Positions 196 through 20,476 of a stretch of DNA of 34,895 nt are shown here, one piece after another. The notes under the pieces were generated by a model. The model made no database searches. It was given only the letters and a program-made list of their open reading frames with translations, and was not told where the DNA came from. A program made the translations under genes and the position numbers. The stretch's first letter is position 1. The number at the start of each line of letters is the position of its first letter. This DNA is from Saliphagus infecundisoli (lineage in GTDB: Archaea; Halobacteriota; Halobacteria; Halobacteriales; Natrialbaceae): NCBI RefSeq assembly GCF_020177375.1, contig NZ_JAIWHV010000031.1, forward strand, positions 1 to 34,895, written 5' to 3'.

Positions 196-1311
196 TTATG
201 GTTTCCACGCCCGAGACGAGTCGTTCAGCCGGATGCACCCGCTCTGGGTGACTGCAACGAGGTCCTCGATGCGAACCCCCCACTCGCCTTCGAAGTAGAC
301 GCCCGGTTCGACACTGAACACCATACCCTCCTCGAGCGTCGTCGTCGCCCCGGGGCCGATTACGAGGTCCTCGTGGGCGGCCAGGCCGACGCCGTGGCCC
401 GTACCATGGGTGAACCGCTCCGCGTAACCGTACTCCTCGAGGGTGTCGCGTGCCGCACGATCCACGTCGCCGGCGCTTACGCCGGGTTCGACGGCGGCGA
501 TGCCGGCCTCGAGTGCGGCATGCACCGCCTCGTGAACGGAATCGAACTCCGCCGGGGTCGTCGGAGGCTCATCGTCGAACACGACGGTTCGCGTCTGATC
601 GCTGGCGTACCCCTCACGGAAACAGCCGAAATCGATGACGACCGGGTCGCCGGTTCGGATCTCCCGGTCGGAGTGGCGCAGTGCCGGATCCGCACCGTTA
701 GGGCCGGCGCCCACGACGACGTCGAAGGAGACGGCCGTCGCCCCGTACGAGTGGAGTTTCGTCCGGATCTTCGTGGCGAGTTCGGCTTCGGTCAGTCCAA
801 TCGCGCTCGCGCCGAGCAATCGGATCTCCTCGCTGACGGCATCGGCGATATCGGCCGATCGCTGGAGGGCTGCGAGCTCGTCGTCGTCCTTGCGGCGACG
901 CATCGCCTCACAGACGGGCGCTGCCGATCCGATCGTCCCGCTCTCGAGGGCGTCGTATAGATGTGCTGTCAGCGCATGGGGGGTGCGGTCGTCGACGAGG
1001 AGTCCCTCGGGCGCGGACGGAAGCAACGAGACGATCGCGTCGCCAACGGTCGCCGGATCGTTTCCATCGACCCGACAGAACGCGTCCGCCGTGACGTTGC
1101 GCCGTGCCTGTGTCAGATACTGGGCCGGCGTGATGAGCGTCACGTCGCCGTCCGTGGGCAGATAGAGGGCATGAAACCGGTCGACCGGTTCCCCGCGAAA
1201 ACCCGTGAAGTATTGCAGGTTCGGACCGGGATAAACGATCGCCGCGTCGGCACCTCTGTCCTTGAGTCGCTGCTGTGCTCGTCGTTGTCGCTCCTCGTAT
1301 CGTCCCTTCAT
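196..1311 (-). CDS. Xaa-Pro aminopeptidase-type M24 metallopeptidase
   Basis: This 371-residue protein is a likely cytoplasmic M24 peptidase that removes N-terminal residues before proline. The first ~130 residues form a creatinase-type N-terminal domain (YPGPNLQYFTGFRGE near residue 27). The pita-bread catalytic domain follows and keeps all five metal ligands: D227 (VIDFG), D238 (SDQTRTVVF), H306 (THGTGHGVG), E335 (SVEPGVYF) and E349 (VRIEDLV). H302 is the usual second histidine of the motif. Length matches the family. The ATG at 1311 directly precedes the conserved N-terminus. The gene stands alone, with AT-rich DNA upstream. The ligand set makes an active enzyme likely; the exact substrate (Xaa-Pro dipeptides or longer peptides) cannot be read from the sequence. 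Confidence 0.92.
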   Translation of the reverse strand: MKGRYEERQRRAQQRLKDRGADAAIVYPGPNLQYFTGFRGEPVDRFHALYLPTDGDVTLITPAQYLTQARRNVTADAFCRVDGNDPATVGDAIVSLLPSAPEGLLVDDRTPHALTAHLYDALESGTIGSAAPVCEAMRRRKDDDELAALQRSADIADAVSEEIRLLGASAIGLTEAELATKIRTKLHSYGATAVSFDVVVGAGPNGADPALRHSDREIRTGDPVVIDFGCFREGYASDQTRTVVFDDEPPTTPAEFDSVHEAVHAALEAGIAAVEPGVSAGDVDRAARDTLEEYGYAERFTHGTGHGVGLAAHEDLVIGPGATTTLEEGMVFSVEPGVYFEGEWGVRIEDLVAVTQSGCIRLNDSSRAWKP

Positions 1312-2118
1312 ATCACCGTCTCTGCTTCAGGCGTACTAAATGTACCTCCACTTTGTGATGCGCTCGTAAGATATGATGGAACCGAAGCCACGAGTCGAAC
1401 AAGCCATTCATGAGTAGGGTTATCACAAATTGGAACTGGTGATTCATGATATAGTATGTTAGAAACTGATATGCGATATTGGTACTCTAGCAACTACTAG
1501 TTAATATTAACTCCTCCGTGGCTTAGTGTTCGTTCAACCATGATAGCCCTACTAATAAGCTATAAAGGTATATATCATCCCTGGTATTTGGGAAGACTCC
1601 GACACCATATTTCCCCCAGCTGTCACGACTAAACTCCTCTAACAACGTTGTACTGGATTCAGATCTGATCTCCGGGCCGGCCGTCGCGGAAGCTAGAACG
1701 ATCTTGAAGGTTCGATTTATATATGTCTCTAATAACTTATCGCACAGAAAAAATACCCATACATGTCCATCTGATGGCTACTAACACTCACCAAAAACTC
1801 TGGTGTAGATGTCGGCGGAGGATTCCCCGACGACGTTACGTGGCGAGGCCGGGTTACGTACAGCGATGAATCGGGGGTTCGGCGTCCGTGTCCGCGAAAT
1901 CCGTTACCCCGGATGCACATAGGGGGTGGGGCGGGGCAACGGACGCGTTCTGCGATAGTCGGCCTCCGTGAGACGGGACCGACACCCTCTCTTGGTTACG
2001 AAGGGCAATTAGTAATGGTGCCAAACACGAAGTAAGGAGGGATTATTTCTCGGCACTCGAGAGCGTACGCAGGGGATCCAGCGGAGAGCCGGCACCGAAT
2101 CTACAGGCGGAGCAGGCA
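1312..2118. other. Intergenic region, AT-rich, no gene seen
   Basis: About 800 bases without a convincing coding region. Roughly 1430-1770 is AT-rich with many in-frame stops. The remainder is GC-rich but its short frames show no recognisable protein. It lies between the peptidase promoter side and a cluster of mobile-element-like hairpins that starts near 2119, so it may be decayed insertion DNA. Confidence 0.5.
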
Positions 2119-2155
2119 GAGTGCATCGGGGCTTGACCCCGAGGCGGTTTACTTT
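2119..2155 (+). repeat. Solo GC-rich hairpin, family 3
   Basis: The stem TCGGGG (2126-2131), loop CTTGA and stem CCCCGA (2137-2142) form a strong hairpin followed by a TTTAC tail. A near copy occurs at 15931-15969 (CCTCGGGG, loop CTTGT, CCCCGAGG, then TACTTCAC). Both are preceded by GAGTGC. Two copies with the same flanks but slightly different stems suggest end hairpins of an IS200/IS605-like element; that assignment is inference. Confidence 0.45.
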
Positions 2156-2222
2156 TCTCGTCGCTACGGACGTGGTCGCAACACGGGTGAGCAACGAGAG
2201 CCCGCCCGTAGGTGGTGTACCT

Positions 2223-2706
2223 GTAAACTACCCCGCCCTACTCGCTCCCTCCCGCCTTGGGGCGGTCGGTCACTCCTTGGGGGCGGGGTTTTATCGAAGC
2301 GACATTGTGCCCCGCGACCCATGCATGGACGTGGCTCGGCTTCCTCTTCCCGTCCACGCTTCGGGCGGGGGCTTTCAGGCCCGCCTTCGACCGTCCGCGT
2401 GGATTGTTCCCGCCGATTCAATTCCCGGTGTTCTCACGCTTTCCCCTCAAATGAGGGACGGGAGTCGAACCCGTTCGCGGTCGTCGTTCCCGAGTATAGG
2501 GTGCGAGGACGCGTCCTCGCACCACGGGAGCCAGTTTACTGGTGGCTCCTCCCCTCCCGGACTTGTGCCGGGAGAGAAGTACCTGGCATATAGGGCGGAA
2601 AGTGTCTAAAACTTGTGATTTCGCCCAACTTCGCAACGCGCTCCTCCCCTCCCTACTCGCGGCTTCACCGCTCGGTGAGGAAGGGGGCGCCGCGCTATCC
2701 GCCAAA
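2223..2706 (-). mobile_element. Block A: hairpin-bounded non-coding element, possible structured RNA
   Basis: Read on the minus strand, this ~485-bp block is a diverged copy of block B (20512-21014, plus strand). It has no convincing ORF. At its 3' end, arms CCCCGCCC (2231-2238) and GGGCGGGG (2281-2288) enclose an inner stem CCGCC/GGCGG. The 5' end (near 2640-2700) has a related hairpin with the same GAGTAGGG motif. Between them are a stem CCACGC/GCGTGG (2354-2359 with 2397-2402), a 5-bp hairpin at 2443-2458, a tRNA-T-arm-like stem-loop at 2458-2474, a perfect 24-bp palindrome at 2500-2523, and a 7-bp hairpin at 2527-2549. Several stems differ from block B by paired changes. The architecture resembles non-autonomous IS200/IS605 derivatives (PATE-like), with a cargo that looks like structured RNA. 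No transposase is encoded. Confidence 0.55.
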
Positions 2707-2954
2707 GCTGACGGGCAGCACGACCCCGAACTGATGTGCCTTCAGATTGGGTCGTGCGATCGGGAGAACTCACTGTAGCTCAATAGATGTATGGGTTGCA
2801 GGACATGCGAGCCCCACTCCGGTCTCGTCCCGTAGCGTTCCCTACCGACGGCCACACCATGCCGAGGCACGGGCCCGAGAGCGCACTCCCGTAGAATCGG
2901 GGCCGGTACGCCGGTTTGGAAGGCGGTCGCTGGATAGCGGTGGGAAGGCGTTCG

Positions 2955-3629
2955 TCAGTGAACGATGTCGTTCTGACTCGGCTCGTCGATCCGTTCGCTC
3001 GCGAGGACCTTGTTCGCCCGGCGAAGTCGTTCGGACAACGCCTGGTGAGAGATCTCGAGTTCGGTCGCGAGATCCTCGAGGGAGATCCGACGCGGGACGT
3101 CGTAGTAGCCCAACTCGTAGGCCGCGCGGATCGCTTCCTCTTGGGCCTCGGTCAGCGTCGTCGTCATGAGATCGATCTTGCGCTCGGCCTCCATCAGTCG
3201 TGTGATATCGACGCGCAGCCCCTGGGATTCGAGCGTGGGGACGGTTTCTGAAAGGAGGGATCGGTCGGGAAACAGGAGTCGGAACGTCCAGTTGCTCGCC
3301 GAACACGCCGCGTCGAGGATCGTCCCGTCGTTGGCGAAGATCGTCGAGAACAGCGTTTCGCTGTCGGCCCCGTACTCGAGGTGGTAGAGCCACTCCGAGT
3401 CCTCGTCGCCCTGAAGCAGACACCTGAACCCCTCGACCGACGTGTCGTCGGTCAGTGCGGCTTCGATCTCCCGTTTGGAGCCACCGGTGAGCCAGACGAG
3501 CGGCAGAATCCGGGTGGAGCCGTCGGCAACGATGCGTTTGACTCGGATCTGAAGGTCGGGGAGTCGCGAAAACGTCTCCGAGAGCATCACGTCTTCGATG
3601 GGAACGCTGAACTTGGTCACCATTGTCAT
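2955..3629 (-). CDS. Bacterio-opsin activator (Bat)-type HTH regulator
   Basis: This 224-residue protein has the two-part layout of the haloarchaeal Bat-like regulators. Residues ~1-150 match the bacterioopsin-activator N-terminal region, presumably sensory. Residues ~159-212 are an HTH-10 DNA-binding domain, visible as LTEAQEEAIRAAYELGYYDV followed by LEDLATELEISHQALSERLR. No PAS or GAF domain precedes it, so this is one of the short family members. The start is placed at the first ATG (3629); an ATG two codons in (3623) is equally possible. It is monocistronic, with ~780 bp of non-coding DNA upstream. Its targets are unknown; the family includes regulators of retinal-protein, carotenoid and stress genes. 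Confidence 0.85.
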   Translation of the reverse strand: MTMVTKFSVPIEDVMLSETFSRLPDLQIRVKRIVADGSTRILPLVWLTGGSKREIEAALTDDTSVEGFRCLLQGDEDSEWLYHLEYGADSETLFSTIFANDGTILDAACSASNWTFRLLFPDRSLLSETVPTLESQGLRVDITRLMEAERKIDLMTTTLTEAQEEAIRAAYELGYYDVPRRISLEDLATELEISHQALSERLRRANKVLASERIDEPSQNDIVH

Positions 3630-4412
3630 ACGATCTCTCCTCCCGTTCCGACGGATGGGACGTATGCACGCGAGGGAGCATGTCGCCGTTCGGCCACAGG
3701 GACCCTGGGACCGGAGGGGAGCGACCGGATCATCGTTGCACAGCCACTCGGATCACGGGTACTCATTGATACGATCGTCCTCTGGGTAGTGTGGTCCTGA
3801 CTGTCTCCGAAGTTTATAGGGCGGGATCGTTCACGGCGACGAACCGGTTCTGACGCGAGAGGCCCAAAGAGCCGACGAGCGCCCCATCCACGGTGAGGGG
3901 AGGGAATATTCATCCCGGTTCAAACGCACTTTCAGCGAATTAGGACACACATTTCGGTCTAGATTCGGCTCGATTCGGTGAACGATGAGCGGTGACTTTA
4001 TTCGCTTCCTCGGTATGCCAACTCGCCGGTCGCATGGCTGGATCGCCAGCCACACTGGCACCCACCTCGGGACCGTTCCCCTTCCCCCACTTCCGTCACC
4101 TCGTGTGACACGGGGCGTCGGTCCCATAGCCCTGTTCGGACGGCCCCCCATCCGTCCGAACCGTCGGATGGCGCCATCGGACCCACGTCTCCGTCGCGTC
4201 CGGAACGAATCCTATCGGTGATCGATGATCGGCGAGAGGCGGGTCGTCGTGACCGCAGTATGATCCGGTTTCTCCCGGTCACTCGAGCATCCCGACGGTC
4301 ACGATATCGTGCCCGTACGGAACGCCGTGAAATCCTCACGAATCCGCGTTAACGACCGCGGAGCGTCGGTGTTCTTAGGGCGGGGCATGTTCGAGCCACG
4401 GACGAGAGCACC
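3630..4412. other. Intergenic region with a small hairpin
   Basis: About 780 bases between the divergently transcribed Bat-type gene and the unknown gene at 4413. I see no convincing gene. A hairpin with 7-bp arms, CCATCCG (4148-4154) and CGGATGG (4165-4171), is followed by the palindrome TGGCGCCA. A TTTATA box at about 3812-3817 could be a promoter element. Short frames here have no recognisable product. Confidence 0.45.
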
Positions 4413-9031: not shown

Positions 9032-9829
9032 TCACCGCCGGTCGTCGAGCTCCTCGAGTGCCCCTCGGAACTGCTCGGCGTTGACCGACGGCTCCACCGA
9101 GGCCTGCTCCGCGAGGACCCCTGCGTACTCGTCGATCGTGTCGGGATCGGGGTCGGCCGCCAGCACGCAGTCGACGTAGCCCTCGAGTGCACCCCGAAGG
9201 CGCTGGGCGTAGTGGTCGTAGGCGGCATCGATGCGATACTCGTTGTCGTCGATCCCTTCGAAGACCGCACGATAGACGGTTGCAGCAGCTAGGTAGCGCT
9301 CGCGCTCGCGGTACTGGTCGGCCAGCTCGAAGAGGTGCGAGAAGTCGATGGCCTCCGTGACGACGGGGTACTCCCGGGTGTGCTCGTCGAACAGTGCTTC
9401 GACCGCCTCGCGGTGCTCCTCGACCGACGGGCTGTCGTCGCCGAACCGAGCACGAAACCGCTCGCGTATCTCCGGGTTCGCTGCAAGCACGTCGTCGAGG
9501 AACGCCCGCAGGTCGTCGGCCGGGACGGTCATCAGGAGGGTCTCGATCCCCTCGCTCTCGTCGGCGGGCGGGTCGGCGATGACCTCGAGCAGGGTCGCGA
9601 CGACGTGTTTGCACGCGCCCGCACCCTCGTAAGGGCAGGTACACCGCGTCTCGATCGGTTCCTCGAGGTCGACGCGAACGTCGTAGGCACTCGACCCCCG
9701 GACGACGGCGGTGACGACGTCCTCGAACCGCTCGCAGCGCTGGATCCGCCCTTCCGTCCGGTAGTTCCGGCCGCGCTCGAAGACGGCGTCGGTACACCGC
9801 TCCCGAACGGTGGCTTCGTCGAGATCCAT
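9032..9829 (-). CDS. SWIM zinc-finger domain protein
   Basis: This 265-residue protein carries a SWIM zinc finger of the form CxC...CxH: C63, C65, C73 and H75 within TRCTCPYEGAGACKHVVATL. SWIM domains bind zinc and take part in DNA or protein binding. The ~190 residues after the finger are acidic and helical and contain TPR-like stretches (YRERERYLAAATVYRAVFEG). The start is set at the ATG giving MDLDEATVRERC (9829); the open frame continues to 9922 without family resemblance. It shares the strand with the next gene upstream, 77 bp away, and the two may be co-transcribed. The biological role is unknown. Confidence 0.85.
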   Translation of the reverse strand: MDLDEATVRERCTDAVFERGRNYRTEGRIQRCERFEDVVTAVVRGSSAYDVRVDLEEPIETRCTCPYEGAGACKHVVATLLEVIADPPADESEGIETLLMTVPADDLRAFLDDVLAANPEIRERFRARFGDDSPSVEEHREAVEALFDEHTREYPVVTEAIDFSHLFELADQYRERERYLAAATVYRAVFEGIDDNEYRIDAAYDHYAQRLRGALEGYVDCVLAADPDPDTIDEYAGVLAEQASVEPSVNAEQFRGALEELDDRR

Positions 9830-9906
9830 ATGCGGATGGACGTGTTCGAGCGTTTTGTGTGTCGGGTTCTGTCGGTTCTCGACTCTGGCGGGTGCCCGCA
9901 GGCCGT

Positions 9907-10506
9907 CTAGATGCCGAGCCACTCGTCGTTTCGGATCTCGTACCCGTTCGTCCGGCAGAACTTCGCCGCTTCCCGGCGTACCGATCGGGACCCCGGGAGT
10001 TGTTCTTTGTCACGGATTCGCTCGACGATCCAGTCGCTGATGACGTGGACTCCCTCATCGTCGTCATCGGCGTCGATCGCTTTGAGTTCCCGAAACGTCT
10101 TCTCGTAGGCTTCACGCTGTGACTCACTGAGATCTGCGTCCGGAAGCGTCTCGCTGGCTTCCACGACTCGTTTCATGGCCGCGGCGACCGTCGGCCGCTG
10201 GACTCGCGCTCGGACGGCAGACGGAGAGTCGAACATCACTGCATCCGTCTCCGGAACCAGTTCCTCGACAGTGTAGCCCCTATCGCCCGAATTGACTTCG
10301 CGGTCGCCGATCACCGCGACGACCTCCGACCCCGCTGCCGGGAATGTCAGCGATTCGAGTTCCGAACCGAGATCGGCGAACTCGTCCGAGTCAACCGGCG
10401 GCTCTGTTTCGTCTCCTCGTTCCAGGTCCGCGGCAATGTCGCGCTGTCGCTGGCGTCTGTCAGCGTCGCGCGCTTGCTTCTCTCGGCCACGCTTGTCGTC
10501 TGCCAT
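9907..10506 (-). CDS. Conserved haloarchaeal hypothetical protein
   Basis: This 199-residue soluble acidic protein begins with a charged KRGREKQARDADRRQRQRD stretch that is probably helical. The centre is beta-rich (EVVAVIGDREV), and the C-terminal ~60 residues (VHVISDWIVERIRDKEQLPG, then RREAAKFCRTNGYEIRNDEW) form a small helical domain. The layout recalls small haloarchaeal DUF5789-like proteins, but I am not certain of that family. No catalytic motif is visible. It is probably the first gene of a two-gene unit with the SWIM protein. Confidence 0.75.
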   Translation of the reverse strand: MADDKRGREKQARDADRRQRQRDIAADLERGDETEPPVDSDEFADLGSELESLTFPAAGSEVVAVIGDREVNSGDRGYTVEELVPETDAVMFDSPSAVRARVQRPTVAAAMKRVVEASETLPDADLSESQREAYEKTFRELKAIDADDDDEGVHVISDWIVERIRDKEQLPGSRSVRREAAKFCRTNGYEIRNDEWLGI

Positions 10507-10571
10507 CTCTGAATGGTGGCTTCCCAGCGGGATAGTTCTGTGGTTGATCGGCTCCGGAGCGGTTCTTCATC

Positions 10572-11489
10572 TTACCGGTAGGGTGCACAGACTCGTTCGA
10601 GACCCTCTTCGAGGCGGATCTGGGGTTCCCAGCCGGTGTCGTCGCGAATTTTCTCGATATCCGCACAGGTGTCGTGGACGTAGACGTCCTCGGGGATTGG
10701 ATTCTCGACGTACTCGGGCTCGACATTCGTGTCGAGGTGGTCGTTCAGCCGGTCGACGAGCTCGTTGAAGCTGTAGGGCTCTTCGGTGCCGAGGTTGTAG
10801 ACACCAGTGAGTCGGTTCTCGGCGGCGGCCTCGAGCCCGCGGACGATATCTGTGATGTAGGTGAAATCGCGTGTCTGGGTGCCGTCGCCATACAGCTCTG
10901 GGGAGCGCCCGTGAGCGATGTCGTCGGCGAACTGGGCGATGACGTTCGCATACTCGCCCTTGTGGCCCTCGGCGCCGTCGTAGCCCTGATACACCGAAAA
11001 GAAGCGCATGCCGGCGGTGGCGATGTCGTAGTGATTGTGGAAGTACTCGGCGTATCGTTCTCGGGCAAGTTTCGAGGCCTCGTAGCCCGTGTTCACGGCG
11101 ACGGGCATCTCCTCGGGGGAGGGCTCCGTTCGGCTGCCGTAGATCGAGGAGGTCGAGGCATACACGACCGTGTCACAGCCGTCTTGTCTCGCCTGGTCGA
11201 CAGTGTTGACGAACCCCTCGACGTTGACGCGGGCACCCCGCGTGGGATCTTCCTCGTGCATTGCATACGAGGAGAGCGCGGCGAGGTGAAAGACCACGTC
11301 GACATCGGTGGGAAGGTCGTCGTCGAGGACGCCCACCGGGCGGTAGTCGACGTCGCTCGTGAGATTGTCGGGGGTGCCGAGGTACTCGTCATCGATGGCG
11401 ATGACGTCGTTGTCCGTGGCGAGATGGGTCGCGAGGTTCGAGCCGATGAAGCCCGCGCCGCCCGTGACGAGCACGCGTTGGTCCTGCAT
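10572..11489 (-). CDS. NAD-dependent nucleotide-sugar epimerase/dehydratase (extended SDR)
   Basis: This 305-residue enzyme is of the UDP-glucose 4-epimerase type. The N-terminal Rossmann motif GGAGFIGSNLA (10-20) binds NAD. The catalytic triad region has S113/S114 (YASTSSIYGS) and Y136/K140 (YEASK). The sugar-binding half contains GDGTQTRDFTYITD and YNLGTEEPYSFNEL. Family length is 300-330, so it is complete. It probably makes an activated sugar for surface glycans or protein N-glycosylation; the substrate cannot be assigned. The start ATG at 11489 directly precedes the Rossmann strand. It is transcribed toward the hypothetical gene at 10506, and a decayed xylanase gene lies upstream on the other strand. 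Confidence 0.9.
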   Translation of the reverse strand: MQDQRVLVTGGAGFIGSNLATHLATDNDVIAIDDEYLGTPDNLTSDVDYRPVGVLDDDLPTDVDVVFHLAALSSYAMHEEDPTRGARVNVEGFVNTVDQARQDGCDTVVYASTSSIYGSRTEPSPEEMPVAVNTGYEASKLARERYAEYFHNHYDIATAGMRFFSVYQGYDGAEGHKGEYANVIAQFADDIAHGRSPELYGDGTQTRDFTYITDIVRGLEAAAENRLTGVYNLGTEEPYSFNELVDRLNDHLDTNVEPEYVENPIPEDVYVHDTCADIEKIRDDTGWEPQIRLEEGLERVCAPYR

Positions 11490-16068: not shown

Positions 16069-16419
16069 ATGAAACGAACATTCACCGCACTCCTGACCCT
16101 TGCACTGCTCGGGACCCTCGTGTTCGGGGGCCTGGCCGGCACGGCGGCTGCCCACGATCACCACGACAAAGACGACGAAAAACAGGAGTCCGAGCAGGGT
16201 GCTGCGGTCTTTCAGCAGTCCAATGCTGAAGTGACCCAGACCCAGTATAGCGCACAGGCTAACGTAAACGATGGCGACCAGACCGCCGTCGCGCTGAGCT
16301 ACCAGGGCTTCGCGGACGCTTCGAACAGCGTGACGCAAATCAACGCCAACTCCCAGAGTGCAACCGCCGTCAGCACGAACATCGCTGACGTCGACCAGGA
16401 CAGCAACCAGAAGCAGTAA
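16069..16419 (+). CDS. Exported curlin-like Q/N-rich repeat protein, small
   Basis: This 116-residue protein has a Sec-type signal peptide (positive start MKR, hydrophobic core 5-24, likely cleavage after TAAA at 25-28). A short histidine/acidic linker (HDHHDKDDEKQE) follows. The mature part has two related units at about 49-75 and 78-104, with regularly spaced Q, N, S and A: QQSNAEVTQTQYSAQANVN and SNSVTQINANSQSATAVS. The spacing resembles curlin repeats, which stack as beta strands in bacterial curli fibres; that comparison is inference. The convergent gene at 16507-18171 encodes a much longer protein with the same type of unit. No CsgG- or CsgE-like gene is visible in the window. Confidence 0.8.
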   Translation: MKRTFTALLTLALLGTLVFGGLAGTAAAHDHHDKDDEKQESEQGAAVFQQSNAEVTQTQYSAQANVNDGDQTAVALSYQGFADASNSVTQINANSQSATAVSTNIADVDQDSNQKQ

Positions 16420-16423
16420 GTCG

Positions 16424-16446
16424 CCCGACCGGTTGCCCTTTTTTTA
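16424..16446 (+). terminator. T-run terminator
   Basis: A run of seven T (16439-16445) follows CGACCGGTTGCCC just after the stop of the small repeat-protein gene. Archaeal termination on T-runs makes this a likely 3' end for that transcript. The region to the convergent gene is only 87 bases. Confidence 0.55.
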
Positions 16447-16506
16447 CCGAGAACCAACCATACTAACAAGTATGTGAAAGCTATGGCTGGTTGCGTCGAG
16501 TGTCTG

Positions 16507-18171
16507 TCACCTCATTGAGTGATAGGGCATGTTTCTCCCGGCCGTCTGTCGAACCCAGCTCTTCGCATCGTTTTCACTCTTGTTGTTCTCTCCGTTCTTG
16601 TCTTTCCCGTTCTTACCTTTCCCATCTTTCCCATCCTTGTCTTTGTCCTTCTTATCCTTCCCGTCCTTGCCTTTCCCGTTATTATTCTTGTCACAGCCGC
16701 TGTCACCGCTCCCGACGCTGGCTGCCCGTGCCTCGGCGAGCTGGATGTTCTCGTTGGTCTCGTAGCTCACTTGTTCTGCGGTCGCCTCGCCGGAATCGCC
16801 GGCGATCGCGATTGCCGTGAGCTGTTCGTTGACGTTCAGCTGCTGGACGAACTGGAGTTGGGAGATCTCGGCAGCAGCGGTCTGCTGGTCGACGTCCCCG
16901 TTCTCGTAGGCGAGGGCCCAGGCCTGATCCTCGCTGGCGTTCGCCCCGTTGAGCACCGCGCGGCCGTTGGCGCTGCCCTCTTCGACGGTGAGGGCCTCGG
17001 CTGACGCGACCTGCGCGTTGAAGTTGGCCTGGTAGCTCACCTGCCGGGCCGTCGCGGAGCTGTCGTCGGTGGCAGCCGCGACCGCCGCGTTCTGCAGGTT
17101 GATGTTCTCCTGGCCGACCTGCTGGCCCTGAACGATATCAGCGGACGCCTCCTGTGTGTTCGACTGGTTCTTACAGGTGTCCGACCGCGAGAGCACGTCC
17201 TCCGGCAGCTCACCGACCATATCGCCACAGTCGAGAACGTCGGTGATCGATCTCGCATCGAAGGCGATCGCCGCTGCTTCGGCGACCTGTTCGTTCAGGT
17301 TGGTCTGTGAACTCTGCTGATAGGCCTCGGCGACGCTGTCTTTCCCGACGGCGATCGCGATGGCGACGCCCTGTTCGCTGACGTTGAGCTGTCCGACCTC
17401 CTGGGCCTGTTCGACCTCGGCATCGGCCGTCTGTTCGTCGGCGTCGCCGATGGCGGCGGCAACGGCGTCGGCGTGCTGGTAGTTCTCGTTGGTCTGCCAG
17501 CTCTGCTGGTAGGCCTGTGCGTGGCTACAGTCTTCGGCGAGCGCAACCGCAGCGCTTTGGCTGCTGTAATTCAGCTGGTCGACCTTCTGATCCTGGTCGA
17601 TCGTCGCCCGAGCGGACTGTTCGTTCTGGTAGCTGTCCTCCTTGGCGACCCAGCCGGTGAACGTTCGGGTCCCCGTCTCTTCGGCGAAGACGACGTATAC
17701 GGTGGTCGGATCGGTGAACGTCTCGTCTCGGGTCTCTTCGTCGATCGCGATCGATTCTGCAGTGCCCTCCTGTGTGTTGACGTTGCTCTGTTCGGCCTCC
17801 TGGATCGCCGTCGCCTCGCCGCCGTCGATCGCGATACTGACGGCGTAGCCCTGCTGGGTGACGTTGAGCTGGGAGACGTCCTGATACTGGATGACGCTCG
17901 CGAGCGACTCCTGACCGTTCCCGTTGATCTCCGCACAGTGATCGTCGACCCAGCCGTCGAGATCTCGTTCGGATGAGTCGGCACCGAAGACCAGGTATAG
18001 TTCGTCGCCGTCGAGGTCGTGTGTGTCCTCCGCTGATTGTTCATCGTCCGAGCCCGCACGTGCGCTGCCGGTCGCGACCGACAGTGCGCCAGCGCCAGCG
18101 CTGCTTGCTGCGAGCCCTTTGAGATAGCCCCGTCGATTCATCGTGACATAGTCCGCGTCTTTCTCTACCAT
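16507..18171 (-). CDS. Tat-exported large Q/N/A-repeat (curlin-like) protein
   Basis: This 554-residue protein begins with a Tat signal (MNRRGYLKGLAASSAGAGAL at 11-30), so it is exported folded. Two short motifs follow, YLVFGADSSERDLDGWV (59-75) and YVVFAEETGTRTFTGWV (159-175). Five long modules, at about 98-142, 192-243, 245-303, 343-395 and 428-486, share the pattern QLNV..Q..A.A.A, then Q.S.QTN.N.Q.A.A.A. Examples are VGQLNVSEQGVAIAIA and AYQQSSQTNLNEQVAEA. The spacing of Q, N and A every few residues suggests a stacked beta solenoid like curlin repeats. A lysine/glycine/aspartate-rich tail (~494-535) ends the protein. The Tat ATG at 18141 is an alternative start. It is convergent with the small protein of the same repeat type; the two may form one extracellular structure. 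Confidence 0.82.
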   Translation of the reverse strand: MVEKDADYVTMNRRGYLKGLAASSAGAGALSVATGSARAGSDDEQSAEDTHDLDGDELYLVFGADSSERDLDGWVDDHCAEINGNGQESLASVIQYQDVSQLNVTQQGYAVSIAIDGGEATAIQEAEQSNVNTQEGTAESIAIDEETRDETFTDPTTVYVVFAEETGTRTFTGWVAKEDSYQNEQSARATIDQDQKVDQLNYSSQSAAVALAEDCSHAQAYQQSWQTNENYQHADAVAAAIGDADEQTADAEVEQAQEVGQLNVSEQGVAIAIAVGKDSVAEAYQQSSQTNLNEQVAEAAAIAFDARSITDVLDCGDMVGELPEDVLSRSDTCKNQSNTQEASADIVQGQQVGQENINLQNAAVAAATDDSSATARQVSYQANFNAQVASAEALTVEEGSANGRAVLNGANASEDQAWALAYENGDVDQQTAAAEISQLQFVQQLNVNEQLTAIAIAGDSGEATAEQVSYETNENIQLAEARAASVGSGDSGCDKNNNGKGKDGKDKKDKDKDGKDGKGKNGKDKNGENNKSENDAKSWVRQTAGRNMPYHSMR

Positions 18172-18366: not shown

Positions 18367-18389
18367 CGGTGGAGCGACCACTTCCGTCC

Positions 18390-18941
18390 GTGATACATTC
18401 TCAACAGACGACCGTCCGTCAGCAGGCCGGCAGCGTCGAGGAGAACGAACTGCGGCTCGATCAGGAGAAAGCCGAACAGGTCGTCGACGCGCTCAACACC
18501 GAGCTCGCGAACTCGTACGTGCTCTACCACCAGCTCAAGAAACACCACTGGGTGGTCGAGGGCTCGGAGTTCCTTCCCCTTCACGAGTTCCTCGAGGAGT
18601 CCTACGAGCACGTCGAGGAGGACGCGGACGTCATCGCCGAGCGCGCCCAGGCGCTGGGCGGCGTCCCCGTCTCGGGGCCCTCGAACCAGGAGGACCGGGC
18701 AACGGTGGAGTTCGAGGGCGAGGACGTCTACGACGTCCGGACGATGTTCCAGAACGACCTCGAAATGTACGGCGACATCATCGAATCGCTGCGCGGGAGC
18801 ATCGAACTCGCCGAGAACCTCGGCGACTACGCCACCGCCGAGATCCTCCGGGAGATCCTCGTCACCCTCGAAGAGGACGGCCACCACTTCGAACACTACC
18901 TCGAGGACGACACGCTCACCCTCGAGGAAGCGACCCACTAA
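18390..18941 (+). CDS. dpsA: DpsA, DNA-protecting ferritin-like protein
   Basis: This 183-residue Dps-family protein should assemble into a 12-subunit shell that oxidises and stores iron and limits oxidative damage. The inter-subunit ferroxidase ligands are all present and correctly spaced: H53 (KKHHW), H65 (LPLHEF), D80 and E84 (ADVIAERAQALGG). That is the 12/15/4 spacing of Escherichia coli H51, H63, D78 and E82. The ending HHFEHYLEDDTL matches the Halobacterium DpsA C-terminus as I recall it, and the length is nearly the same (182). The GTG start is chosen from the upstream TATA box; the ATG at 18369 would add seven residues. It is followed 13 bp later by a second, diverged dps gene, probably in one operon. 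Confidence 0.9.
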   Translation: MIHSQQTTVRQQAGSVEENELRLDQEKAEQVVDALNTELANSYVLYHQLKKHHWVVEGSEFLPLHEFLEESYEHVEEDADVIAERAQALGGVPVSGPSNQEDRATVEFEGEDVYDVRTMFQNDLEMYGDIIESLRGSIELAENLGDYATAEILREILVTLEEDGHHFEHYLEDDTLTLEEATH

Positions 18942-18954
18942 ACGGGTGAGTTGA

Positions 18955-19536
18955 ATGCCACAGAAACACGGCCCGCTCGTCCGGGAGACCGGTGCGAGCG
19001 GGCGCCGTCAGGAGTGGGGCACTATCGTGGAGAACCCGCTCCGGATCGAACCCGCCGTCGCCGAAGCGCTCATCGAGGCGTTGAGCGTCGACCACACCGG
19101 ATCGTTCAACCTGTTCTACCTGCTTCGCAAGCATTACTGGACTGCTGCGGGCGCCGAACACGAGGCGGTCGCCGACTTCCTCGAAGAGGCCTACAAACGT
19201 GTGCGGGAGATCAACGACGACCTCGCGATTCGAATCGTCCAACTCGGAGGGATTCCGCCGAACACGCCGCCGACGATTCAGGAACGGGCCGACGTCCATC
19301 TCGAGGCCGAGAACCTCTACGACCTTCGTGCGTCGTTGGACGGCGATCTCCTGGGGTATGCGACCCTGATCGTCAGTCTGCGCGACCACATTGCGCTCGC
19401 CGAACGACGGGGCGATCCGGGCACGGCCGAACTACTCCGTGACCACCTCGAAGCCCTCGAAGCGGACGCCCACGTCATCGAGCAACTACTCGAGGCCGAT
19501 ACTCTCGTTCGGGCGGAGGTGCTGGCTGACCGATGA
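18955..19536 (+). CDS. Dps-like protein lacking most ferroxidase residues (paralogue 2)
   Basis: This 193-residue protein has the Dps four-helix fold (NLFYLLRKHYW, ADFLEEAYKRV, LAIRIVQLGG, ADAHVIEQLLEADTLV) but an altered iron site. Aligned on the invariant tryptophan, the residue at H53 of DpsA is Y61, H65 is A73, E84 is I92, and only the aspartate (D88) remains. Ferroxidase activity is therefore unlikely, although shell formation or DNA binding could persist. A ribosome-binding GGTGA precedes the ATG by 7 bases, and the gene lies 13 bp after dpsA. Its TGA stop falls at the left edge of the 381-bp element, so its last few residues may differ from the ancestral protein. Confidence 0.88.
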   Translation: MPQKHGPLVRETGASGRRQEWGTIVENPLRIEPAVAEALIEALSVDHTGSFNLFYLLRKHYWTAAGAEHEAVADFLEEAYKRVREINDDLAIRIVQLGGIPPNTPPTIQERADVHLEAENLYDLRASLDGDLLGYATLIVSLRDHIALAERRGDPGTAELLRDHLEALEADAHVIEQLLEADTLVRAEVLADR

Positions 19537-19912
19537 CACGAATTAAGCGGAAGCCCACGACTTCAGTCGTGGGTCTAAGCGGTAGGCAGAGACTCGAAAC
19601 CGCAAGACTTAGGCACTCTGGGGCTGTTTATGTGTCTAACTCGACTGGGAAAACTGGGGTTGGATTGGGGTCCCCATCAACAAAAAGCAACCCTGCCCGA
19701 TTGAGTGTGGCTGATGGCACCGCCCGTAGGGTGTTAGCGAGGCAGTCCGAACGCGTTCGGACTGACGTTGCCATGCGTTCATCGCCTCGACGCACTGCCT
19801 ACAAACCGGAACCAACCACTGGGGTTGGGAAGTTGCCTCCGTCGGGGTGGTCAGCGTGACCGGCCCCGAGCGCGAGGAATCCCACGACTTTAGTCGTGTG
19901 GGGGATGTCAAG
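19532..19912 (+). mobile_element. 381-bp hairpin-ended non-autonomous element, copy 2 (PATE-like)
   Basis: This copy has the same length as 6934-7314, with a handful of substitutions and no gaps. Left hairpin arms CCCACGACT and AGTCGTGGG lie near 19554-19572. The right-end hairpin region is at 19878-19900 and ends GGGGATGTCAAG. Identity stops abruptly on both sides: T versus C before GATGAC, and CC versus AG after CAAG. It is inserted between two tandem dps genes, with the upstream stop codon at its left edge. The downstream gene has no start codon of its own outside it. High similarity of the copies argues for recent movement. Confidence 0.82.
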
Positions 19913-20476
19913 AGTAGCCCACATCTCCGCCGACCCGACTCGTCTCATCTCCGCCAGGAGTGGAACACGGTCGCCGACAACGCGCTCCGTCTCGATGAGG
20001 ACGTGGCCGAACGGCTGGTCACAGCCCTGAACACCGACGTCTCGGGGCTGTATATCCTCTTCAATCAGGTGCGAAAGCACTACTGGCTCGTCGAGGGGGC
20101 CGAATCGAGACCACTTGGGGAGTTCCTCGAGGGCGCTGCCGACCGGCTCTCGGAGATGACCGACGACATCGCGATTCGAATCACCGCGCTCGGCGGTGTT
20201 CCGGCCTGTGGGCCGATGGGGATCCGCCAACACGCGCCCCTATTCATCGAGGAAGCCCACCACTACGATGTCCGCACATCCCTCGCACGGGACCTCGATG
20301 GGTACGCGACGCTCGCGGTGTTGTGGCGCGACCACATCGAGCTGGCGGACCGGCTCGGCGATCAGGCGACGAGCGAACTCCTGCGGGCCCATCTGCAAAC
20401 GCTCGAAGCTGACGCACACGTCCTCGATCGCTACCTTGCCGACGAGACGCTCGTTCGTCACGACGCGCTCGAGTGA
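19898..20476 (+). CDS. Dps-like protein lacking most ferroxidase residues (paralogue 3), start replaced
   Basis: About 192 residues with the Dps fold. It is closest to paralogue 2: both have RQEW(G/N)T and RKHYW, and both end the second helix in AIRI..LGG. Compared with DpsA, H53 is Y62, H65 is G74 and E84 is I93; D89 remains. No ATG, GTG or TTG lies in frame between the right end of the 381-bp element and the conserved N-terminal region. The only usable starts are GTG at 19898, inside the element's end hairpin, and GTG at 19847, further inside. The native start was apparently lost on insertion, so expression is doubtful or depends on the element. The coding part is otherwise undamaged. Confidence 0.75.
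   Translation: MGDVKSSPHLRRPDSSHLRQEWNTVADNALRLDEDVAERLVTALNTDVSGLYILFNQVRKHYWLVEGAESRPLGEFLEGAADRLSEMTDDIAIRITALGGVPACGPMGIRQHAPLFIEEAHHYDVRTSLARDLDGYATLAVLWRDHIELADRLGDQATSELLRAHLQTLEADAHVLDRYLADETLVRHDALE

Follow-up and report, generated by a model that had tools for sequence, protein, structure and literature searches.

A conserved pair of glutamine- and asparagine-rich repeat proteins in haloarchaea: a candidate functional amyloid

Introduction

Do two adjoining genes for exported repeat proteins in a haloarchaeon encode the parts of a surface fibre, and would such a fibre belong with curli? The question is raised by a 34,895-nucleotide stretch of the genome of Saliphagus infecundisoli (contig NZ_JAIWHV010000031.1; hereafter the window), for which a reading of the bare sequence, the original prediction, had proposed a pair of exported curlin-like proteins as a possible archaeal amyloid. 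Haloarchaeal biofilms do stain for amyloid. In the available excerpt of one report, the biofilm matrix of Haloferax volcanii is stained by Congo red and thioflavin T and a putative amyloid is described (PMC4180959); the accessible part of a 2025 review lists in its table only one suggested Haloferax amyloid gene, HVO_1403, as unconfirmed (PMC12520557). The family analysed here, which is also haloarchaeal and is set beside HVO_1403 by description only, occurs in genera that are in culture, for example Natrinema, Natrialba, and Haladaptatus, and offers a concrete candidate.

Two repeat proteins at one locus

The smaller protein, P0001, is encoded by an open reading frame of 116 aa on the plus strand (16069-16419). 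It begins with a Sec-like leader of about 28 residues, judged by eye (MKRTFTALLTLALLGTLVFGGLAGTAAA; 16069-16152, +), which ends in AGTAAA and is of a type that recurs in the small partners of relatives. The larger protein is encoded on the minus strand (16507-18171) and comprises 554 aa if counted from the ATG at 18171. An internal ATG at 18141 yields a product of 544 aa (MNRRGYLKG...), named P0002, on which the P0002 analyses reported below are based. The ATG at 18171 probably is the real start, because relatives possess a stretch of comparable length N-terminal to the twin-arginine (RR) motif. The two genes lie tail to tail, and 87 bp (16420-16506) separate their stop codons.

The Tat-type leader of the large protein, also judged by eye (MNRRGYLKGLAASSAGAGALSVATGSARAG; 18052-18141, -), carries an RR motif that is kept in 13 relatives. 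It is followed by a conserved segment outside the repeats (GDELYLVFGAD...GWV; 17944-18009, -), where G45, Y49, F52, and G53 are invariant in a 21-row alignment of relatives. Alignment and motif then delimit five modules of 53-54 aa with linkers between them, at P0002 residues 80-132 (17746-17904, -), 178-230 (17452-17610, -), 240-293 (17263-17424, -), 333-385 (16987-17145, -), and 423-475 (16717-16875, -). The protein closes with a tail rich in Lys, Asp, Gly, and Asn (16510-16701, -), whose net charge by residue count is +7 versus -71 for the body. The last ~19 residues (16510-16566, -), past the Lys-rich part, are missing from the aligned relatives and possibly reflect a shifted or lost stop codon. 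Three ferritin-like genes (PF00210), which we take to be Dps-like, adjoin the large repeat gene in a row (18369-18941, 18955-19536, and 19847-20476, all +).

A shared module with one conserved face

Each module of P0002 consists of two half-repeats of the pattern Q-x3-Q-x-N-x-(N/S/T)-x-Q. This motif occurs ten times in P0002, and among 2000 shuffled versions of the body 1983 contained none and 17 a single copy. The two half-repeats of a module are spaced by 27, 27, 28, 27, and 27 residues in the five modules, a series found without exception in 30 of 42 large proteins compared (those with exactly 10 matches), and successive motifs of neighbouring modules are 35-108 residues apart. The 42 proteins form alignment A2, which unites the window protein with 41 of 52 large proteins from relatives and leaves out 11, mostly close relatives. 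A module HMM built from the 210 modules of this set matched P0001 across its whole length with 20.5 bits, compared with 8.1 bits for the best of 2000 shuffles, and placed one module at residues 52-104 (16222-16380, +). A profile of modules 2-3 (A3, which is A2 minus one further protein with a long insert) retrieved P0001 from its own genome with an E value of 3.8e-4. The strict half-repeat pattern has no match in P0001, so the kinship of the two proteins rests on the HMM; judged by it, both share the same repeat and are homologous. The original prediction was thus right about two exported proteins with related Gln/Asn repeats and about five modules in the large one; the small protein, credited there with about two repeat units, has one module of two half-repeats.

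Within the 210 modules, alternate alignment columns are nearly invariant. Their mean entropy is 0.57 bits (21 columns) versus 3.02 bits for the 19 columns in between, and the two sets of values do not overlap; any p-value for this difference is descriptive, since the column sets were picked after viewing the alignment. Such alternating conservation is, at the level of sequence, a beta-strand pattern, and the almost invariant face would read A, V, Q, Q, V, Q, N, N, Q ... A, A, Q, S, Q, N, N, Q, G, A, A, N.

Distribution, export classes, and tails

Relatives of P0002 were found in 99 of the 125 genomes searched from its own family, the Natrialbaceae. With an alignment (A1) as query, an order-level sample yielded relatives in 87 of 392 genomes, which belong to the Natrialbaceae and three other families, and a phylum-level sample searched with A3 yielded 15 of 392, every one in the Natrialbaceae. 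The named loci, from Natrialbaceae, Haladaptatus, Halomicrococcus, and Halegenticoccus, number 53, of which 52 contain the large gene and one contains small genes only. When both window proteins and the 42 large proteins were scanned against Pfam and NCBIfam, only chance matches and the PGF-CTERM signal came back, and no known function emerged for the family; open-licence PMC papers yielded no account of it. On these searches the large protein represents an undescribed haloarchaeal family. Identities as a DARPin (for P0002) or as PhoQ (for profile A3) were discarded, both being weak matches in PDB sequence searches. A viral origin was rejected, since no relative is encoded in any of the 206 candidate stretches from viral contigs.

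Large proteins were classed as Tat- or Sec-type by the presence of an RR motif within the first 60 residues. Among 53 large proteins placed in a tree, the 14 with this motif, including that of the window, cluster with two Sec-type rows (L060 and L064), and the remaining 37 Sec-type proteins, all from Natrialbaceae, stand apart. The tree requires two changes of the Sec/Tat label, and by this topology the family comprises one clade that is mainly Tat and one that is Sec. The rows nearest to the window protein are from Natronococcus, and its closest relatives are 64-68% identical. The export routes that the original prediction had called unusual for related proteins do differ in the window, with a Sec-like leader on the small and a Tat-like leader on the large protein, but the large family is itself divided between both routes.

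The tails differ as well. A PGF-CTERM signal (TIGR04126) is present in 4 of the 42 large proteins; P0002, scanned to its end, gave no match to it. Most other Sec-type large proteins end straight after the last half-repeat. The window protein and 11 of 13 Tat-type relatives have an acidic body that ends in a tail of net positive charge, mostly rich in Lys. These sequence differences suggest differing ways in which the large protein may be attached to the surface.

Pairing of small and large genes

At 36 of 39 Sec-type (class I) loci, one to four small repeat genes with Sec leaders, homologous to P0001, lie upstream of the large gene on the opposite strand, the nearest at a median distance of 629 bp (range 272-3788). 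The exceptions are L067, L102, and L090, and at the last the contig ends <500 bp upstream of the large gene. Because the small-protein HMM was seeded with P0001 and 22 small proteins of the same loci, matches there are partly circular; a looser screen without the HMM, by leader shape and Gln/Asn content only, found a small gene at 35 of the 39. Among Tat-type loci, a small gene is adjacent in 1 of 13 (L062), and the other 12 have none nearby. Sec-class loci thus typically have the pair in divergent orientation, and Tat-class loci only exceptionally have the two genes side by side. One such exception is the window, where a Tat-type large gene adjoins the sole small gene of its genome, which gave one match for each protein.

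Within the Natrialbaceae sample, a small gene was detected in 76 of the 99 genomes with a large gene versus 1 of the 26 without (Fisher p 5e-12, kinship among genomes ignored). These numbers were counted by hand, with six unlisted negatives obtained by elimination; among the positives, G048 was dropped, its only match lying inside a large gene, and the marginal G105 was kept. The partnership proposed for the pair is supported by its recurrence in many genomes. The tail-to-tail arrangement is real but local to the window genome, as relatives usually carry the pair head to head.

Several further features of these loci were observed. The divergent small and large genes of class I loci enclose a spacer of several hundred bases (for example at L072 and L080). 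The small proteins of L065-L103 appear much more similar in their leaders (MKRxLTxxLTVALIGSLMFMGFAGTAAA type) than in their mature parts. In Natronorubrum bangense, the large proteins of L080 and L082 are identical on chromosome and plasmid, and the small genes match. At L104 of Haladaptatus salinisoli, five small repeat proteins are encoded in tandem (9109-11065), and no large gene was found in this locus. Dedicated neighbours at class I loci were considered and dismissed, since the surroundings look like housekeeping genes, presumably CDC48-like and LarC-like. At Tat loci no common neighbour stood out, recurring matches being found at differing distances.

Predicted structure

AlphaFold2, run on residues 31-480 of P0002 with the 42-row alignment, placed long strands on every module. 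A pLDDT of at least 90 was reached by 140 of 450 residues, the high-confidence blocks lying in those strands, and the linkers between modules were of low confidence. Within the modules, this prediction favours strands over disorder. Global confidence was low: the best full model had a mean pLDDT of 70.8 and a pTM of 0.59, the other four models ranged from 61.3 to 41.2, and a construct of modules 2-3 alone reached 61.6 with a pTM of 0.43. In these models the local strands appear well predicted, and the packing of strands and the global fold are not trustworthy. Parallel solenoid and antiparallel hairpin stacking are moreover indistinguishable by sequence, because QxNxNxQ is identical when read in either direction.

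The stacked solenoid envisaged originally gained no significant fold match. In Foldseek, the three top matches of the full model were FapC (E 0.66), CsgA (1.4), and FapC (2.6), and modules 2-3 gave FapC first (E 0.036) and CsgA in 21st place; none of these matches reaches significance, and the superpositions were poor (rmsd >20 A). Ice-binding beta-helices and an adhesin were also among the weak matches. VIA-align returned for the full model a single row, one CsgA chain (Z 3.0, rmsd 2.8 across 97 residues), and for the model of modules 2-3 nothing at Z of at least 2; that FapC is missing from its rows is no evidence against a FapC likeness. We treat the FapC and CsgA matches, which depend on these models, as a hint only, also with regard to the Greek-key cross-beta layer of each FapC repeat and to the beta-solenoid fold of curlin.

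Comparison with known fibre systems

The closest parallel may be the Fap system. According to the accessible text on FapC, the imperfect repeats each give one cross-beta layer of about 50 residues, whose shape is held by conserved Asn/Gln networks, and the linkers vary from ~30 to ~260 residues (PMC12392863). The haloarchaeal family likewise has long imperfect repeats (53-54 residues against ~50) with conserved Asn and Gln, variable linkers, and, as with FapB, a partner with a related repeat (PMC12392863, as excerpted). It differs from FapC/FapB in having five modules instead of three, in being archaeal, in its usually divergent genes, and, at the level of sequence, in showing no relation to the FapC chains of the PDB. 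By analogy, the rigid Gln/Asn modules with their elastic linkers and small related partner are closer to FapC/FapB than to CsgA, and the pair may at most work like FapC or curli; membership of neither is claimed. Among archaea, the sheath proteins MspA and SH of Methanospirillum are, in the portion of the source at hand, also extracellular and have an amyloid-like cross-beta structure, a kind of structure that is proposed for the haloarchaeal pair (PMC10593813). As described there, they are set apart by their occurrence in methanogens and, for SH, by a cap domain, two six-stranded sheets, and the formation of rings.

A possible two-component surface fibre

The pair constitutes a conserved, undescribed two-component repeat system with predicted export and predicted strands, for which an amyloid reading is plausible on sequence grounds. 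We give a probability of about one half to the interpretation that it forms a stacked-beta surface fibre or scaffold of haloarchaea, and hence a candidate functional amyloid. Each 53-aa module would fold into two long beta strands that present one nearly invariant face. Gln/Asn contacts would stack these modules both inside one large protein, with its five modules and elastic linkers, and across molecules, and the stack would grow at the cell surface as a cross-beta fibre or sheet, with a conceivable role in adhesion or in the biofilm matrix. The large protein would act as scaffold or nucleator, held at the surface by the PGF-CTERM tail in some lineages and perhaps by the Lys-rich tail in the Tat lineage. 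The one-module small proteins, sometimes encoded in tandem arrays, would add on as the bulk subunit. We infer this division of roles because the large protein has surface signals and the small one tandem copies. The rigid modules, the one-sided Gln/Asn/Ala face, the conserved one-module partner, and the FapC plan argue for a fibre. Against it stand the lack of a significant fold match, full models of which one in five is good, the 12 of 13 Tat-type loci without a nearby small gene, the absence of a FapC or CsgA sequence match, and a co-occurrence confounded by genome kinship. Tat export is also hard to reconcile with a subunit whose folding takes place at the fibre end alone, because the Tat system carries folded proteins.

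A bolder version of this interpretation is possible, though less likely than not. The pair would be an independently evolved haloarchaeal functional amyloid, in which a five-layer scaffold and one-layer subunits share a Gln/Asn-ladder module and the scaffold has switched between Sec and Tat; the Tat lineage would export a pre-folded seed that is grown outside by Sec-exported subunits. Confirmation of the candidate amyloid would mean that archaea, at high salt, apparently evolved an Asn/Gln-ladder repeat fibre anew, with neither curli nor Fap machinery, and would make the Sec/Tat split a test of whether an amyloid seed can leave the cell in folded form.

Alternative interpretations

Possible, though we doubt it, is a monomeric beta-solenoid or beta-sandwich surface protein (an adhesin, a ligand-binding or an S-layer-associated protein) that stacks only within itself, with the small protein as a one-module regulator, cap, or decoy and no polymer. 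Five modules could complete an intramolecular stack, one end of which the conserved N-terminal segment could cap, and the Tat clade suggests that folding precedes export. The PGF-CTERM signals and, among the weak Foldseek matches, the ice-binding beta-helices and the adhesin are also in line with a monomeric surface protein. However, the single module of the small protein is unlikely to form a stable monomeric stack, and the tandem arrays of small genes, as at L104, suggest a product made in bulk.

It is rather improbable that the Gln/Asn-rich modules bind metal, polysaccharide, or DNA through their conserved face and that the pair serves in uptake or matrix binding. The extreme conservation of one module face, the Lys-rich tails of the Tat clade, and the ferritin-like genes next to the large gene of the window would suit such a function. 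Yet the conserved face consists of Ala, Gln, Asn, and Val, residues not typical of metal or sugar sites; neither a binding domain nor a transport gene was recognised in the pair; and the ferritin neighbours were not seen conserved at Tat-class relatives.

The fibre reading does not imply kinship with curli. Like CsgA and CsgB, the haloarchaeal proteins are exported, Gln/Asn-rich, and paired, with five repeats or modules, but their 27-aa half-repeat follows another pattern. The curlin repeat PF07012 had no match in the window's genome at E <=0.001, with a positive E. coli control, and none in the 42 large proteins at E <=1. The minimal curli motif X6QXGX2NX10 occurs once in P0002 and not in P0001, versus four times in CsgA and five times in CsgB; at least one copy is present in 23 of the 42 members, and neither CsgA nor CsgB contains the archaeal half-repeat motif. 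The secretion protein CsgG (PF03783) was not found in the window's genome, as had been anticipated from the window, and archaea lack the outer membrane that CsgG serves. A PDB sequence search with profile A3 returned no FapC or CsgA chain, and none of FapC at E <=10. The label "curlin-like", taken as membership, has to be abandoned in the absence of PF07012, of serial curli motifs, and of CsgG; and true but distant membership of the curli or Fap families, through acquisition by archaea and later divergence, is very improbable on the same grounds, even though FapC and CsgA lead the non-significant structure matches and, in the excerpt available, Dueholm et al. (2012) report one archaeal protein with curli-like repeats matched by their repeat HMM (PMC3521004).

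Three large genes of Haladaptatus and Halomicrococcus (L059, L060, and L064) are located on plasmids, and the Tat-containing clade may therefore have spread horizontally.
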